The position numbers and the translations under genes are program-made. The notes beneath the pieces are model-generated. The model saw only the letters and a list, made by a program, of their open reading frames with translations, was not told the origin of the DNA and did no database searches. A DNA stretch of 64,000 nt from Roseibium aggregatum (GTDB taxonomy: Bacteria > Pseudomonadota > Alphaproteobacteria > Rhizobiales > Stappiaceae): the NCBI RefSeq assembly GCF_014692675.1, contig NZ_JABFCZ010000015.1:62001-126000 (forward strand), given 5' to 3'. Positions 10,808 to 28,953 of the stretch are shown in pieces. Within the stretch, counting starts at the first letter, position 1. Each line of letters opens with the position of its first letter.

Positions 10808-12112
10808 CTAATGCGACATCATGTTCTGGGGCAACCACAGAGCCAGTTCCGGGAAGGTCACGATCAGCACGACCGCCAGGATCATGAGCAGGAAGAACGG
10901 CAGGGCCATCCGCGCGACCTTGAAGATGTTGTGGCCGGTCATTCCCTGCAGCACGAACAGGTTGAAACCCACAGGCGGTGTGATCTGGCTCATTTCCACG
11001 ACCAGCACCAGGTAGATGCCGAACCAGATCAGATCGAGACCAGCCTGTTCGACCATGGGCAGGATCACCGACGTGGTCAGCACCACGACGGAAATCCCGT
11101 CGAGGAAACAGCCGAGCACGATAAAGAACACGGTGAGCGCGGCAAGCAGCTGCAGCGGCGACAGGCCGAGAGAGCCGATCCAGCCGGCCAGTTCGCGGGG
11201 GATGCCGGTAAAGCCCATGGCAACGGTGAGGAAGGCGGCGCCGGCCAGGATGAAGGCGATCATGCAGGACGTCCGCGTCGCCCCCATCAGGGCGTCGGTG
11301 AAGCTCTTCTTCGTCAGCGTGCCGGAGGCCCAGGACAACAGCAGCGACAGCACCACGCCGATGGCGGCTGCTTCGGTCGGCGCGGCAAGGCCTGCATAGA
11401 TCGAGCCGATCACGCCGGCGATCAGGGCGATCACCGGGAACAGGCGGCGGGTCGACTTGACCCGGTCCCAGAACGGGATCTGCGGCTCCTTCTCCGGCAT
11501 CTTCGATGCATTCAGGGTCGCCCAGATCGCCACATAGCCCATGAAAAGCACACAGAGCATGGCGCCGGGAACGACACCGGCGACGAACAGCCGTGCGATC
11601 GACTGCTCGGTGGCGGCCCCGTAGACGATCAGGATGATCGACGGCGGGATCAGAAGACCGAGCGTGCCGGACCCGGCCAGCGTGCCGATGGCCATTCTCT
11701 CGTCATAGCCGCGCTGCTTCAGTTCCGGCAGCGACATCTTGCCGATGGTCGCGGTGGTCGCCGCCGACGAGCCGGAGACCGCGGCAAAGATCCCGCAGCC
11801 GAGAATATTCACATGTAAGAGCCGGCCGGGCAGGTTGCGCATCCACGGCGACAGGCCGGCGAACATGTCCTCCGACAGGCGCGAACGGAACAGGATCTCG
11901 CCCATCCAGATGAACATCGGCAGGGCGGTCAGGTCCCAGGAATTGGCAGCCCCCCAAACGGTGGTGGCCAGCACCGAGCCGGCCGGCGCCGACACCAGCA
12001 ACATCATGGCGATCAGCGCAACGCCGAAAAGCGCGATGGCAACCCAGATGCCGGTGGCCAGCGCCGCCAGCATGCCCAGTCCCAGACACAGGGCAACAAG
12101 GGAGAGATCCAT
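10808..12112 (-). CDS. dctM: TRAP transporter large permease subunit, DctM type
   Basis: 434 residues, about 12 hydrophobic helices; the Na+-coupled translocating subunit of a tripartite ATP-independent periplasmic transporter. Typical family segments are seen: MFIWMGEILFRSRLSEDMFAGLSPWMRNLPGRLLHVNI, IFAAVSGSSAATTATIG, MAIGTLAGSGTLGLLIPPSI, and VLGCFLDGISVVVLTTSVILPM. The start overlaps the dctQ stop by one base (TAATG). Transports whatever the DctP protein encoded upstream binds. Confidence 0.95.
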   Translation of the reverse strand: MDLSLVALCLGLGMLAALATGIWVAIALFGVALIAMMLLVSAPAGSVLATTVWGAANSWDLTALPMFIWMGEILFRSRLSEDMFAGLSPWMRNLPGRLLHVNILGCGIFAAVSGSSAATTATIGKMSLPELKQRGYDERMAIGTLAGSGTLGLLIPPSIILIVYGAATEQSIARLFVAGVVPGAMLCVLFMGYVAIWATLNASKMPEKEPQIPFWDRVKSTRRLFPVIALIAGVIGSIYAGLAAPTEAAAIGVVLSLLLSWASGTLTKKSFTDALMGATRTSCMIAFILAGAAFLTVAMGFTGIPRELAGWIGSLGLSPLQLLAALTVFFIVLGCFLDGISVVVLTTSVILPMVEQAGLDLIWFGIYLVLVVEMSQITPPVGFNLFVLQGMTGHNIFKVARMALPFFLLMILAVVLIVTFPELALWLPQNMMSH

Positions 12113-12669
12113 TATTCCACTCCCTCAATCGCGTCGCTGCGATCGGCGGCCTGATAACTGGCCGGCCTGCCCCGCACCGCGCGCAGAAAATCGTCGAGGA
12201 TCGAGATCGCGAAAACGGCGAGCCCTGCCGTCATGACCAGTTGGGGGATCCACAGCGGAATGGGAATAATGCCGAAGGAGACCTCGTGGTAGAGGTAGCT
12301 GTCGTAGACCAGCAAAGCCGCATTCCACGCAAAAAAGCTGACAAGAACCAGCGCAACGCCGAGGCACCAGACTTCGAAGGCCTTCGCGACCGGCTTGGAT
12401 ACCTGCTGCAGCAGGATCGAGACCCGGATGTGGTCGCCCATGCGCAGCGTGGAGGCGAGCGCCAGGAACGAGGCGCCGACCAGCAGGAAACCGGCAATTT
12501 CGGCAAGAGAGGGAACCAGGAGGCCGAGCGGCTCCAGGCCGATCAGCTTTCGAAACCCGTCGATGAGCCGGCAGGACACCTGGATCACGACAAGACTGGC
12601 AATTGTAACGAGACAGGCGGCGGCCAGTCCGCCGGCCAGACGGTAGAGCCCGTTGAGAAAGGCGCGCAT
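12112..12669 (-). CDS. dctQ: TRAP transporter small permease subunit, DctQ type
   Basis: 185 residues with four hydrophobic helices, at about 12-34, 50-70, 92-112 and 135-157. The segment LRMGDHIRVSILLQQV and the PIPLWIPQLVMTAGLAVFAI helix are usual in DctQ. It sits between dctP and dctM, 71 bases downstream of dctP, and is translationally coupled to dctM. Confidence 0.93.
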   Translation of the reverse strand: MRAFLNGLYRLAGGLAAACLVTIASLVVIQVSCRLIDGFRKLIGLEPLGLLVPSLAEIAGFLLVGASFLALASTLRMGDHIRVSILLQQVSKPVAKAFEVWCLGVALVLVSFFAWNAALLVYDSYLYHEVSFGIIPIPLWIPQLVMTAGLAVFAISILDDFLRAVRGRPASYQAADRSDAIEGVE

Positions 12670-12740
12670 CGGCAGGGTCTCCCGCGCAGACAGGAAGCAT
12701 CAGAGCCGGGCGCATTCGCCCGGCTCCCTTACGCAATCAC

Positions 12741-13736
12741 TTATTTGGAATAGGCTTCGATGATCGCCTTGCCGTCGGCACCGGCGCTGTCCTGCCATTC
12801 GGCAACCATGGTCTTGCCGATTTCCTTCAGCGACGCCTGCAGCGCCTCGGAAGGAGCGGCGACCGCGATGCCGTTGTCCTTCAGCATCTGGGTCTTTTCG
12901 GCGGTTTCCGCCTTGGAGGCTTCCCAGCCGCGGGTTTCGGCAGTGGCGGCAGCGTCCATGACGGCGACCTTTTCAGCGTCGGAAAGGCCGTCAAAGGCCT
13001 TCTTGTTCACGATCACCATGTTCTTCGGCAGCCAGGCCTGGGCGTCGTAGTAATGGTCCAGGTAGTCCCAGGCCTTGGAGTTGGCACCGGTCGACGGAGA
13101 GGTGATCATTGCCTCGACCCGGCCGGTGGAGAAGGCGGTCGGCAGGTCTGGCACTTCCACCTGGGTCGGCACGGCGCCGGCCAGCTGGGCGATCCGTTCG
13201 GTCGACGCGTTATAGGCGCGGAACTTCAGGCCCTTCAGGTCGTCGATGGTGTTGATATCCTTCTTGGCGTAGATGCCCTGCGGCGGCCACGGCACGGCAA
13301 AGAGCAGCTGCAGCCCCTGATCGGCGAGCTTCTTTTCCAGGAACGGCTTGGACGCCTGATAGAGCTTCCAGGCATCGTCATAGGAGGTTGCCACGAACGG
13401 CACCGAGTCCACGCCGAAGACCGGGTCTTCGTTCGAAAGGCGCGACACCAGCACTTCGCCGATCGGCGCCAGGCCCTTGCGGACCGCGTTCTTGATTTCC
13501 GGATGCTTGAACAGCGAGCCTGCGGAATGGATCTGGATGCTGAGGGAACCGCCGGTCTTGTCGGAGACGTCCTTGGCGAATTCCGCGATATTGACGGTAT
13601 GGAAGTTGCTGTCGCCGTAAGGCGTCGGCATGTCCCATTTCGTTTGGGCGGAAGCGGAAGCAAGACCGGACAGACCGATGACGGCAGCAGCGGCAAGGCG
13701 GACGCCTGCCTTCGAAAGATGACGTGAAAGCAGCAT
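12741..13736 (-). CDS. dctP: TRAP transporter solute-binding protein, DctP type
   Basis: 331 residues with a signal peptide to about residue 30 (ASASAQ). Periplasmic receptor of the TRAP system. The conserved arginine that usually salt-bridges a substrate carboxylate is in DLKGLKFRAYNASTERIAQL (about residue 168), and VPDLPTAFSTGRVEAMITS is the next family motif. A carboxylated substrate is therefore likely. The facing 5-oxoprolinase/hydantoinase suggests a lactam or hydantoin-like acid (for example pyroglutamate), which is inference from neighbourhood only. Confidence 0.93.
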   Translation of the reverse strand: MLLSRHLSKAGVRLAAAAVIGLSGLASASAQTKWDMPTPYGDSNFHTVNIAEFAKDVSDKTGGSLSIQIHSAGSLFKHPEIKNAVRKGLAPIGEVLVSRLSNEDPVFGVDSVPFVATSYDDAWKLYQASKPFLEKKLADQGLQLLFAVPWPPQGIYAKKDINTIDDLKGLKFRAYNASTERIAQLAGAVPTQVEVPDLPTAFSTGRVEAMITSPSTGANSKAWDYLDHYYDAQAWLPKNMVIVNKKAFDGLSDAEKVAVMDAAATAETRGWEASKAETAEKTQMLKDNGIAVAAPSEALQASLKEIGKTMVAEWQDSAGADGKAIIEAYSK

Positions 13737-20745: not shown

Positions 20746-22005
20746 ATGCATGCGGTGGGCAGGCGCGTAGCCTGCATCGTTTTCCTGTTTCTTTTCGGAT
20801 TTGCGCTTCCGGCCTGCGCAAAGCCGCTGACCTTCGGCGTGCTCGCGCATCGCGGCGAAAACAATGCCCGCTCCCGCTGGCAGGCGACGGCTACGTACCT
20901 GATCGAACAGCTCCGGCAAGAGGTGCGCCTTGTCCCGCTGACCTTGGAAGGCATGCAGGCGGCCCTTGCCGCCGGCAGACTTGATTTCCTGCTGACAAAT
21001 CCCGGTCATTATGTCGCCACGGCCGCCGAATTCCCGCTGTCTCCCCTGGCAACACTGCAGCGCAACCGGTCAGAGGGGGAGGACCGGCCGAACAAATTCG
21101 GCTCGGTCATTTTCACCCGCGCCGACCGTGACGACATCCATGCGCTTGGAGATCTGAAGGGCAAAACCTTCGGAGCCGTCGCACCGGATGCATTCGGGGG
21201 CTACCAGATCGCCGCCGACACCCTGATGTACAACGGTCTGAATCCCGAACAGGATTTTCAGGCGATCAATTTCCTCGGCTTTCCGCAGGACAAGATCGTC
21301 CGGGCCGTGGTCGATGGCGACGTCGATTTCGGCACGGTCCGCACCGGTATCATCGAGGCCATGGTGGCCGAGGACCGGCTTCGGATGAACCAGATCAAGG
21401 TCTTGAACCCGCACATCATCGATGGCTTCGATTACCAGCTTTCCACCGACCTTTTTCCCGAATGGACCTTCGCGGCGACCACACAGGTTTCCCCCGAACT
21501 GAAACGGAAAGCGGCAATCGCCCTTTTGTCCATGTCGCCGGGCGACCCGGCCGCTCTTGCCGGAAACTACGGCGGCTGGAACACGCCGATGAACGACAAG
21601 GATGTCCGTTCCGTTCTCGATACGATCGCAGGACATGCCGCACCGCAGATGCAGCAGCCCTCCGCGAACCTGACTGTCTGGCTGACGCTTGCCGCGCTGA
21701 CCGGTTTCATCGCCTTTCTGCTTGGGCGCATCAGGCGCCCCCGGCTGGCCCATGCTCCTCGGGGACCGGCGATGGCAGGCGAGGATACAAGGCTGGCCGC
21801 CCTGACCCGCCGCGAACACCAGGTGCTCGATCTCATTGTCCGCGGCCGGACAAACAAGGAAATGGCGCGCCAGCTCGGCATCTCTCCCAAGACGGTGGAA
21901 TTCCATCGCGGGCATGTCATGAAAAAACTCAAGGCGGACACGGTTGCCGACCTTGTCCGGATCGCCCTCGAATGCGGCCAGGGCCTGCCTCACAAGCAAA
22001 CCTAG
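20746..22005 (+). CDS. membrane one-component regulator: periplasmic PhnD-like domain, TM helix, LuxR HTH
   Basis: 419 residues. An N-terminal signal sequence (residues 1-25, ending PACA) leads into a PhnD/TTT-type solute-binding domain (about 25-300: LTFGVLAHRGENNARSRW, then LKGKTFGAVAPDAFGGYQIAAD). One helix follows at about 310-328 (TVWLTLAALTGFIAFLLG) with basic residues after it, then a LuxR/GerE helix-turn-helix at 351-411 (LTRREHQVLDLIVRGRTNKEMARQLGISPKTVEFHRGHVMKKL). The layout predicts that ligand is sensed in the periplasm and passed directly to a DNA-binding domain at the membrane. PhnD-like domains usually serve ABC transporters or histidine kinases, so direct fusion to LuxR HTH is unusual. 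The next gene encodes an orphan solute-binding protein and is a likely target or partner. Confidence 0.9.
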   Translation: MHAVGRRVACIVFLFLFGFALPACAKPLTFGVLAHRGENNARSRWQATATYLIEQLRQEVRLVPLTLEGMQAALAAGRLDFLLTNPGHYVATAAEFPLSPLATLQRNRSEGEDRPNKFGSVIFTRADRDDIHALGDLKGKTFGAVAPDAFGGYQIAADTLMYNGLNPEQDFQAINFLGFPQDKIVRAVVDGDVDFGTVRTGIIEAMVAEDRLRMNQIKVLNPHIIDGFDYQLSTDLFPEWTFAATTQVSPELKRKAAIALLSMSPGDPAALAGNYGGWNTPMNDKDVRSVLDTIAGHAAPQMQQPSANLTVWLTLAALTGFIAFLLGRIRRPRLAHAPRGPAMAGEDTRLAALTRREHQVLDLIVRGRTNKEMARQLGISPKTVEFHRGHVMKKLKADTVADLVRIALECGQGLPHKQT

Positions 22006-22020
22006 GGAGAGTCCTAGGGA
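22001..22020. promoter_or_regulatory. direct repeat CCTAGGGA between regulator and solute-binding protein gene
   Basis: CCTAGGGA occurs at 22001-22008 and again at 22013-22020, a 12-base period, each containing the palindrome CCTAGG. The first overlaps the regulator stop codon. The pair lies about 100 bases before the next gene and could be a binding site for the LuxR-type protein; this is inference. Confidence 0.3.
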
Positions 22021-22121
22021 ATAATCGGCACCGCACCAGCTATCGGCGCTGAGGGCCTCCAGACTAGCCTTCTGGCAGCGGGCACAAGATCCGCGAAAAA
22101 ACATCACCCAGGAGGAAACCA

Positions 22122-23087
22122 ATGAGGACAGCATTCAACGCGCTGGCCGTGACGGCCCTTGCCGCCTTGTTGCCGCTTGCAGCCCATTCGGCCGAAGACG
22201 CCGGCCAGTCTCACGATTACCGCACCTTCCAGTCAAACGGCACGATCGAATACGGCAAGATCGGCGATTCCTACACCGCCGACCTGGTCATGTATCTGGC
22301 CGGCAACCAGTTCATGGTCATGGAAGAGCTGATCAAGGACTTACAGTCCAGGAACAGCGGCATTTCCAGCATCTATGTCGAAACCATCCCGCCGGGTCAG
22401 ATCCTGAAAGGCCAGATCCTCAAGCAGGGGGAGATCGACGGCCAGAAAACCGCCCAGAACCCGGACCTTTATGCCAGCGTGAACCTCGGCCACCTGAAGC
22501 AATTGAAGAAAAAGGGCCTGATGGACGACTACATGGTCTACATCCACAACAAGCTGGAACTGATGGTCGCCAAAGGCAACCCGAAGGGGATCAAGGGCCC
22601 GGAGGATCTGGCCCGTGACGATCTCGTCAAATCCCTGCCGAATCCGCTGACCGAAGGCATTTTCAAGTTCTACGGGTCGGCAATGCTCAAGGAGCTCGGC
22701 ATTTACGAAAAGGTGACAGCCAACGCGGAATGCAAGAGCTGCTGGGCGATCGAAGGCAAGACCTGGTTCACATCGCGCCACCACCGCGAAACCCCCTACC
22801 TCATCGAAAAGGGTGAAGCGGATGTCGGCATCGTCTGGACGTCGGAGATCCTGCATGCGATCGCGACCGACCGCGCGATCGAAGGCGTCGCCATTTCCGC
22901 GCCCCTGAACATGGCCCAGAAGGTGAACTATGCCATCGGCCCGCTGAAAACCGGCCGCAACCAGGAAAACGCTGCGAAATTCCTGGACTATCTGCAGACC
23001 TCGGAAGCCCAGGACATCTACGCCAAGTACGGCTTCGTTCCAGCAAGCGAGGAAGAACTCTCGCTCCGGCCGATCCCGGAAAGCTGA
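22122..23087 (+). CDS. periplasmic solute-binding protein without a transporter (ModA-like)
   Basis: 321 residues, signal peptide to about residue 24 (LPLAAHSAEDA), AGGAGGAAACCA before the start. The fold appears to be a type II extracellular solute-binding protein similar to molybdate-type receptors: LVMYLAGNQFMVMEELIKDLQ, LVAKGNPKGIKGPEDLARDDL, GEADVGIVWTSEILHAI and FLDYLQTSEAQDIYAKYGFVPAS. The CKSCW motif at about 206 may form a disulfide or bind metal. No permease or ATPase gene adjoins it. Because it follows the PhnD-LuxR receptor, it may present a ligand to that receptor. The ligand is unknown and molybdate should not be assumed. Confidence 0.82.
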   Translation: MRTAFNALAVTALAALLPLAAHSAEDAGQSHDYRTFQSNGTIEYGKIGDSYTADLVMYLAGNQFMVMEELIKDLQSRNSGISSIYVETIPPGQILKGQILKQGEIDGQKTAQNPDLYASVNLGHLKQLKKKGLMDDYMVYIHNKLELMVAKGNPKGIKGPEDLARDDLVKSLPNPLTEGIFKFYGSAMLKELGIYEKVTANAECKSCWAIEGKTWFTSRHHRETPYLIEKGEADVGIVWTSEILHAIATDRAIEGVAISAPLNMAQKVNYAIGPLKTGRNQENAAKFLDYLQTSEAQDIYAKYGFVPASEEELSLRPIPES

Positions 23088-28307: not shown

Positions 28308-28667
28308 TGATCTTCCCTGGCGCGGTTCACTCCCATCTTCGGAAGATTAGCCGGCGCGCGTTAACATTGCGCTACTATTATTGGAAAAAATTATTAACGA
28401 TAATCCAACGCACTCGAGGCACTTAGATCAAAAAATCTATTGATTGGGCTTACCTCAATACAACCATTGAATGAAGAATTGTTAAAATACAATCGAGTCG
28501 AGATACTATCCGAAACGAAGTAATCCGCGCCGGTCGTCAAAGCCCGCCGCGGCGGACGGCCTCCGTACATTCAACAGGCCTGCTGCGATGCAGCATCTTT
28601 TTTCCTTCGCAACCGGCACGCTGTCCCCTACAGTCTGATCGTTCGAGAAGGTAATCGGGAGGCCAAT
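28308..28667. other. gene-free stretch, AT-rich in the middle
   Basis: About 360 bases between the DUF2336 start and the small membrane ORF. The part from about 28365 to 28500 is AT-rich and probably carries promoters for one or both sides. No stable hairpin or repeat was found. Confidence 0.4.
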
Positions 28668-28751
28668 ATGATCCTGACACGCAACCTGAATATGATTGCC
28701 TTTTTTGTCGCGTTCCTGTTTCTGACGGCAATCGTGCTCGGCATCTTCTGA
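28668..28751 (+). CDS. 27-residue hydrophobic small protein
   Basis: A short frame with a strong ribosome binding site: GGGAGG, 6 bases before the ATG. It encodes MILTRNLNMIAFFVAFLFLT and then AIVLGIF: a short polar N-terminus with one basic residue, then a single membrane helix of about 19 residues ending at the stop. The combination of a good binding site and a complete helix makes chance unlikely but not excluded. No neighbours in the same operon. Confidence 0.55.
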   Translation: MILTRNLNMIAFFVAFLFLTAIVLGIF

Positions 28752-28953
28752 TTGATACCCGAGCCGCATGGCAATCTGGACCTGAGAATACAAAAGGCGG
28801 AACACACTGCCTGAGGCGAAGAAATCGCCGGGCGCTTTTCCTTAAATAAGTTAACCGGTGCATGGGGCGGCTGAGCCCGGGGAATAATATTCTCCGGCAA
28901 CGTGAACTGCTGCCGGTCATTCCTGAAAATCCGGCCTGAAAACCGAAGATGCG

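Follow-up and report, generated by a model that had tools for sequence, protein, structure and literature searches.

The protein P1, encoded at 20746-22005 on the forward strand of the analysed window (a 64,000-nucleotide stretch of Roseibium aggregatum DNA), is with a probability of about 0.65 a membrane-tethered one-component regulator that derives from a TtrSR/ThsSR-type system, detects a sulfur oxyanion and regulates sulfur proteins of the periplasm. P1 probably represents a signalling system that has been reduced from two parts to one. The domains predicted for it, its single transmembrane segment between them, the grouping of its sensor with those of five other fusions and the occurrence of the same neighbour gene beside kinase relatives are seen in the sequences themselves.

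Domain architecture of P1

P1 is 419 aa long with an ATG start. Its PhnD-type binding domain covers residues 30-275 (20833-21570; PF12974, E 5.8e-44) and is of the TtrS sensor type (NF040750), and a LuxR/FixJ-type helix-turn-helix (HTH) covers residues 352-407 (21799-21966; PF00196, GerE, E 1.4e-19). Both domains scored above the curated Pfam cut-offs, and FixJ was the best solved relative of the HTH. Two hydrophobic segments were recognized by hydropathy, namely a predicted N-terminal signal peptide or anchor (around residues 1-25, 20746-20820, with a peak at residues 8-26) and a putative transmembrane helix at residues 309-327 (21670-21726), which is followed by RIRRPR. The single-sequence AlphaFold model contained a helix at residues 307-328 and a confident HTH (ten-residue blocks between 351 and 400 at pLDDT 85-95); the model was poor overall (mean pLDDT 44.9, pTM 0.24) and did not resolve the binding domain. 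The original prediction of a PhnD-type domain, a transmembrane helix and a LuxR HTH in this chain is thus borne out by Pfam, hydropathy and the modelled helix, fold prediction having been of use for the helix and the HTH but not for the binding domain.

Neither HisKA/HATPase nor receiver (Response_reg) domains were found by Pfam in P1 or in the five other fusions described below, so that P1 is not a hybrid sensor but carries a DNA-binding domain and a transmembrane segment in a single chain, without kinase or receiver. Since this architecture is present in five other genomes, an assembly artefact is excluded. P1 had been proposed to be a direct ligand-to-DNA sensor; receptor and transcription factor do appear to be combined in one membrane-spanning chain, but the PhnD-like domain turned out to be of the TtrS sensor type.

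Sensor type and ligand class

The top NCBIfam match of P1 was TtrS (NF040750), the sensor kinase of tetrathionate respiration (residues 23-315, E 6.2e-50), and the score of 170 bits is far below the whole-protein cut-off of 750 because the kinase half is missing from P1. Similarly, the fusions of L191 and L116 matched this model in its sensor part only, whereas six kinase relatives matched it nearly end to end. At the 34 sensor columns with at least 80% conservation among the 62 sensor domains gathered, P1 has the consensus residue in 30 and departs from it in 4. The TtrS-type sensor domain thus makes thiosulfate/tetrathionate the likely ligand class of P1.

Domains of the PhnD type are also found in systems for phosphite, phosphonate and arsenite. 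A one-component regulator for another anion, such as phosphonate, phosphite, an arsenite-like compound or an organosulfonate, which P2 (the product of the next gene) may bind as well, would agree with the naming of PF12974 for phosphonate, with the solved relatives of the sensor half in the PDB (PtxB, ArrX and AioX, all weak) and with the likeness of P2 to molybdate- and sulfate-binding proteins. However, phosphonate-type NCBIfam models reached only E 1.4e-17 and 1.8e-13 on P1, so that the E-value of the TtrS model is more than 30 orders of magnitude better than theirs. Sulfur-oxidation or tetrathionate-type loci are among the neighbourhoods of the kinase relatives and of the P2 relatives, and Pfam scanning of genes around P1 and around the fusion in L116 detected no phosphonate or arsenic gene. 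We consider such a ligand unlikely.

TtrS-like kinases adjoin ttrBCA-type genes in three loci, two of which were annotated with DsrO, NrfD and molybdopterin oxidoreductase (L132 and L133) and one of which has relatives of these (L206), and they lie beside sox genes in four others (L117, L195, L201 and L205); these loci are a part of the TtrS-like kinases gathered, many others of which have neighbours without assignment. The host genome contains SoxY, Z, A, B, C and D-like genes in a row, with SoxY also assigned by family. In the reporter strains described by Daeffler and colleagues (PMC5408782), thiosulfate elicited a response from ThsSR and tetrathionate one from Shewanella TtrSR. Given these sulfur neighbourhoods, the sox cluster and the reporter responses, we favour a sulfur oxyanion as the probable ligand of P1, without specifying which one.

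In two genomes of one genus, TtrS-like sensors (L129, 6589-8324; L130, 6426-8722) are located directly after a gene for a 319-residue protein with an exported-lipoprotein-like start.

Distribution and phylogeny of the fusion

For each genome, the searches scored only the top four or five candidates, and the samples overlapped, so that the counts are lower bounds. With an alignment of two fusions as the query, 297 genomes of the order yielded at least six fusions in five families, including that of the host genome (G000, G557, G970, G865, G876 and G1065). The domain order PF12974 plus PF00196 therefore recurs in five other genomes, and the homologues keep both the transmembrane helix and the HTH, as had been anticipated: Pfam confirmed PF12974 and GerE in all five, and each has one hydrophobic segment between sensor and HTH. 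The internal stop codons of two fusion matches sit at the match ends, and the open frames are whole.

Within the family, 77 of 87 genomes had some match to the sensor part of P1 at E 0.001. Matches at E < 1e-25 were confined to 11 genomes, one of them the host, and the other 10 had open frames of 600 to 710 residues, which is kinase length. None of these strong matches came from the 44 other genomes belonging to the genus. Among 385 genomes of the class, a single match spanning the sensor and the whole HTH was found in the host genome only, and among 398 genomes of the phylum the fusion was found in the host genome and G557. A match of 24-374 in G213 belongs to a kinase. A scan of genome contigs with P1 returned four loci, all of them HTH matches; viral contigs gave no match to P1, and among the 888 plasmid records that matched P1 none had one place covering 80% of it.

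In a tree of the 62 sensor domains, the six fusions formed one clade (support 98/88) with TtrS-like kinases on the surrounding branches. P1 was the outermost and most divergent member (end branch 0.83), the sensor domains of the other fusions being 35-43% identical to that of P1 (35% in L190 and 40% in L191). The tree does not resolve its deeper forks and singles out no kinase clade as the nearest to the fusions. From the spread of kinases on this unrooted tree, we infer that kinases were ancestral to the fusions. An HTH tree, in which 34 of 40 rows were kept after six near-duplicates had been left out and from which eight rows of the host genome were also left out, united the other five fusions at 100/99, and P1 joined them at 74/28 only. 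One fusion event would be the simplest reading of these sequences, and a separate event for P1 is possible because of its weak attachment in the HTH tree.

The long branch of P1 and the absence of a comparable sensor from the rest of the genus might also be expected of a decaying sensor-kinase gene that was fused to an HTH by chance and is no longer useful. This is very improbable, given that six open frames from five families of the order are intact and arrange their parts alike, that the sensor residues and the HTH are conserved, and that the fusions are linked to conserved partner genes.

The neighbouring solute-binding protein P2

P2 (22122-23087, forward strand, 321 aa) starts 116 bases after P1 on the same strand. 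It contains an SBP_bac_11 domain (PF13531, residues 56-305, E 4.5e-36, above the curated cut-off) and resembles molybdate- and sulfate-binding proteins, and its N-terminus, read from the translation, is hydrophobic and signal-like. P1 is followed by a second solute-binding gene as originally noted, with no permease or ATPase gene among the Pfam-scanned neighbours. The expected lack of pairing with an uptake transporter likewise extends to L190 and L191, where, judged by protein starts, no permease or ATPase adjoins P2; L191 has ABC genes on the other strand, and these look like an exporter. A perfect 12-bp hairpin after P2 (23161-23188, forward strand), with a poor T run and missing from the list of the terminator scan, is a possible end of the P1-P2 unit.

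P2 or an orthologue directly follows the fusion in three of the six fusion loci (72% identity in L190 and 69% in L191), and a CxxC motif (Cys204 and Cys207, 22731-22742, forward strand) is invariant in the alignment of these three orthologues. The motif sits in an insert missing from most of the distant relatives aligned, among which only that of L119 has a CxxC near the same position. The distant relatives (approximately 26-34% identity) were examined in 11 loci, comprising nine genome regions from 11 matching genomes (G156 and G608 were left out) and two plasmids from three of 23 records examined (L136, which lacks annotation, was left out). Sulfur genes lie alongside in six of these loci: DsrE and a SoxA/TsdA-type cytochrome in L118, DoxDA in L121 and L127, a YeeE-type gene in L122, Blh and YeeE on a Bosea plasmid, and DsrE and a sulfate exporter on a Hymenobacter plasmid. 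L120, where the neighbours are limited to cytochromes c and one exported protein without assignment, was not counted as a sulfur locus, and the neighbours in L119, L123, L124 and L128 had no clear sulfur link.

A family of approximately 265 residues with a signal-like N-terminus is encoded directly beside P2-type proteins in three of these loci (L121, 7172-7984; L122, 9064-9852; L120, 7503-8294), and its members in L121 and L122 had no Pfam match at E 0.001.

The DsrE-family partner and the role of P2

In five of the six fusion loci, a DsrE-family gene of the sulfur-carrier type is located at most two genes downstream. The order is fusion, P2 orthologue and DsrE-family protein in L190 and L191, and fusion followed by DsrE-family protein in L116, L189 and L192, where DsrE occupies the place of P2. 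The gene in L189 is truncated by the contig end, and that in L192 was located by tblastn; gene calls in the relatives' genomes came from a simple caller, which was unreliable in the GC-rich L192, L200 and L202-L204, and the neighbours of the four fusions other than P1 and L116 were judged from protein starts and a few BLAST queries. The P1 locus in the window has no adjacent DsrE gene, and the host genome encodes an orthologue on another contig (C36) that is 65% identical to the one beside P2 in L191. The DsrE-type proteins of L191 and of the host score just below the Pfam cut-off and that of L190 gives no Pfam match; all three are tied by BLAST to those of L116 and L125. One cysteine is invariant in all seven DsrE-type proteins aligned, and these partners should work in the periplasm, judging by their signal-like N-termini. 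The DsrE-family gene is a more constant partner of the fusions than P2.

Furthermore, the genes run kinase, response regulator, DsrE without interruption for four of the eight kinases of a neighbouring clade (L125, L194, L196 and L197); a fifth (L195) has its sox genes upstream and its downstream side cut by the contig end, and no DsrE gene stands next to the regulator in L193, L198 and L199. Sensor and neighbour gene thus occur together both in the presence and in the absence of kinase and receiver.

The pairing of P1 with P2 that had been expected was recovered as an adjacent orthologue in two of the five other fusion loci, but in the other three DsrE stands in its place. P2 had been proposed to be the target of P1, its co-receptor, or both. 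As a co-receptor, loaded P2 would dock on P1 and drive the HTH, which would suit its position directly after half of the fusions and its identity of about 70% between loci, against 35-43% to P1 for the sensor domains. This role is nevertheless improbable, given that the fusion genome G557 has no P2-type match at E 1e-15, that P1 already contains a complete binding domain, and that sulfur loci with P2 relatives show no sensor of this kind in the regions inspected. P2 is more likely the target of P1 because of the G557 fusion without P2, and the three fusion loci with DsrE in its place indicate that P2 is something the sensor controls. We put forward more tentatively that a sulfur-oxyanion two-component system collapsed once to one chain, which then spread across several families together with a so far undescribed pair of periplasmic sulfur-handling proteins, a CxxC-containing solute-binding protein (P2) and an exported DsrE-type sulfur carrier. 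If this is true, the steps by which two-component signalling became one-component could be traced in this family, and the pair would form a new periplasmic sulfur relay.

Genomic context and history of the locus

Genes Pfam-scanned between 10808 and 29599, leaving out a 99-aa ORF at 28506-28805, encode a TRAP transporter (DctPQM, 10808-13736, on the strand opposite to P1), metallo-beta-lactamase-type and hydantoinase/oxoprolinase proteins, a chemoreceptor, P1, P2, and SpoIIAA-like, DUF2470, BA14K, extensin-like, LysE, DUF2336 and flavodoxin-like proteins, with no ABC permease or ATPase among them. In the congener G036, the hydantoinase (86%), SpoIIAA-like (63%) and DUF2470 (73%) genes keep this order; a single different gene, and no chemoreceptor, P1 or P2, lies between the first two. 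The segment 18435-23329, which carries these three genes, is missing between the same flanks in G036 (L217). Its absence there, together with the lack of the sensor in the other genomes of the genus, suggests that the segment, or its P1-P2 part, was gained in this lineage; loss elsewhere is possible. The GC content, at 62% for P1 and 58% for P2, is close to the 61% of the window.

The protein encoded after P2 (23330-24055) has two SpoIIAA-like stretches; when the genus was searched for it at E 1e-20, just one of the 44 further genomes gave a match.

An inverted repeat between P1 and P2

The inverted repeat CCTAGG-GAGAGT-CCTAGG (22001-22018, forward strand) overlaps the stop codon of P1. This pattern had one match in the window and none in 100 shuffles, and TAGGGNNNNYCCTA was found once in the 5.66-Mb genome, at the same position, against 23 times for a reversed control pattern. 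Similar repeats span the stop codon of the regulator in L125, L117 and L146.

The motif AGGGNNNNCCCT, derived from the window, L117 and L125 and chosen after inspection, occurred with at most one mismatch in 11 of 21 regulator-target regions of a first set (2.2 expected from shuffles), against 3 of 22 upstream regions (1.4 expected), and was not enriched in a second set (1 of 16 regions, 1.6 expected). The relaxed form RGGG-N4-CCCY was present in 6 of the 20 first-set regions (0.6 expected), in 2 of the 14 second-set regions (0.4 expected, p 0.055) and in 2 of the 22 upstream regions that served as controls (0.3 expected, p 0.04), and spacers of 5 and 6 (3 of 14 and 4 of 14) outdid the spacer of 4 in the second set. 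L190-L192 had only poor sites. The operator motif was rejected, its enrichment being limited to the discovery loci, failing in the second set and having an unstable spacer. Because the motif was post hoc and its spacer unstable, the repeat at 22001-22018 is kept as a candidate operator only, and binding of P1 to DNA at 22001-22121 is a guess.

Proposed mechanism and significance

In the mechanism that we infer, the PhnD-type domain of P1 would lie in the periplasm and bind a small sulfur oxyanion of the thiosulfate or tetrathionate class, and binding would change the dimer state of the sensor domain. The single transmembrane helix would relay this change to the LuxR HTH, which would activate, rather than repress, nearby genes for periplasmic sulfur handling, namely P2 here and the DsrE-family protein in relatives. 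Kinase, receiver and phosphotransfer would have been lost from a TtrSR/ThsSR-type ancestor, an evolutionary direction that runs from two proteins to one.

The sensors known for the thiosulfate/tetrathionate class need two proteins and phosphotransfer. If our reading is true, P1 could be a natural one-protein receptor for this class and a compact candidate biosensor. The existence of relatives with kinase, regulator and target gene on the one hand, and of one-chain relatives with sensor, HTH and target on the other, makes the step from two proteins to one testable by domain swaps. P2 and the exported DsrE-type proteins are candidate periplasmic sulfur proteins that merit study.

Comparison with known systems

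The SBP_bac_11 domain of P2 is common to molybdate/sulfate-type binding proteins, from which P2 differs in having no permease or ATPase alongside, in the insert with its CxxC and in the sulfur-redox neighbours of many of its relatives. The DsrE-type partners resemble DsrE-family sulfur carriers in being of the PF02635 type with one invariant cysteine, but differ from them in their signal-like N-termini.

TtrS/TtrR and ThsS/ThsR share with P1 a PhnD-type periplasmic sensor of the same family and a LuxR/FixJ-type output, and many of their relatives, like those of P1, are found in sulfur neighbourhoods; these systems consist of two proteins with HisKA/HATPase and receiver domains and work by phosphotransfer, whereas P1 joins the sensor directly to the HTH. 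In ToxR and CadC the winged helix is N-terminal and the sensor C-terminal, while P1 has the sensor first, the LuxR HTH last and an N-terminal signal-like segment. As in P1, an outside domain, a transmembrane helix and a DNA-binding domain are combined in one chain in ToxR, CadC and other transmembrane transcription regulators (TTRs). The words LuxR, GerE, phosphonate and solute-binding are absent from the main text of a TTR survey (PMC10269533). The search described by Daeffler and colleagues (PMC5408782) covered only sensor kinases with PhnD-like domains, and our searches of the open-access literature brought up no earlier description of a PhnD-type sensor fused to a LuxR HTH. Transmembrane regulators and PhnD-type sulfur sensors are thus each known, and it is their union in one chain that, as far as we found, is new.
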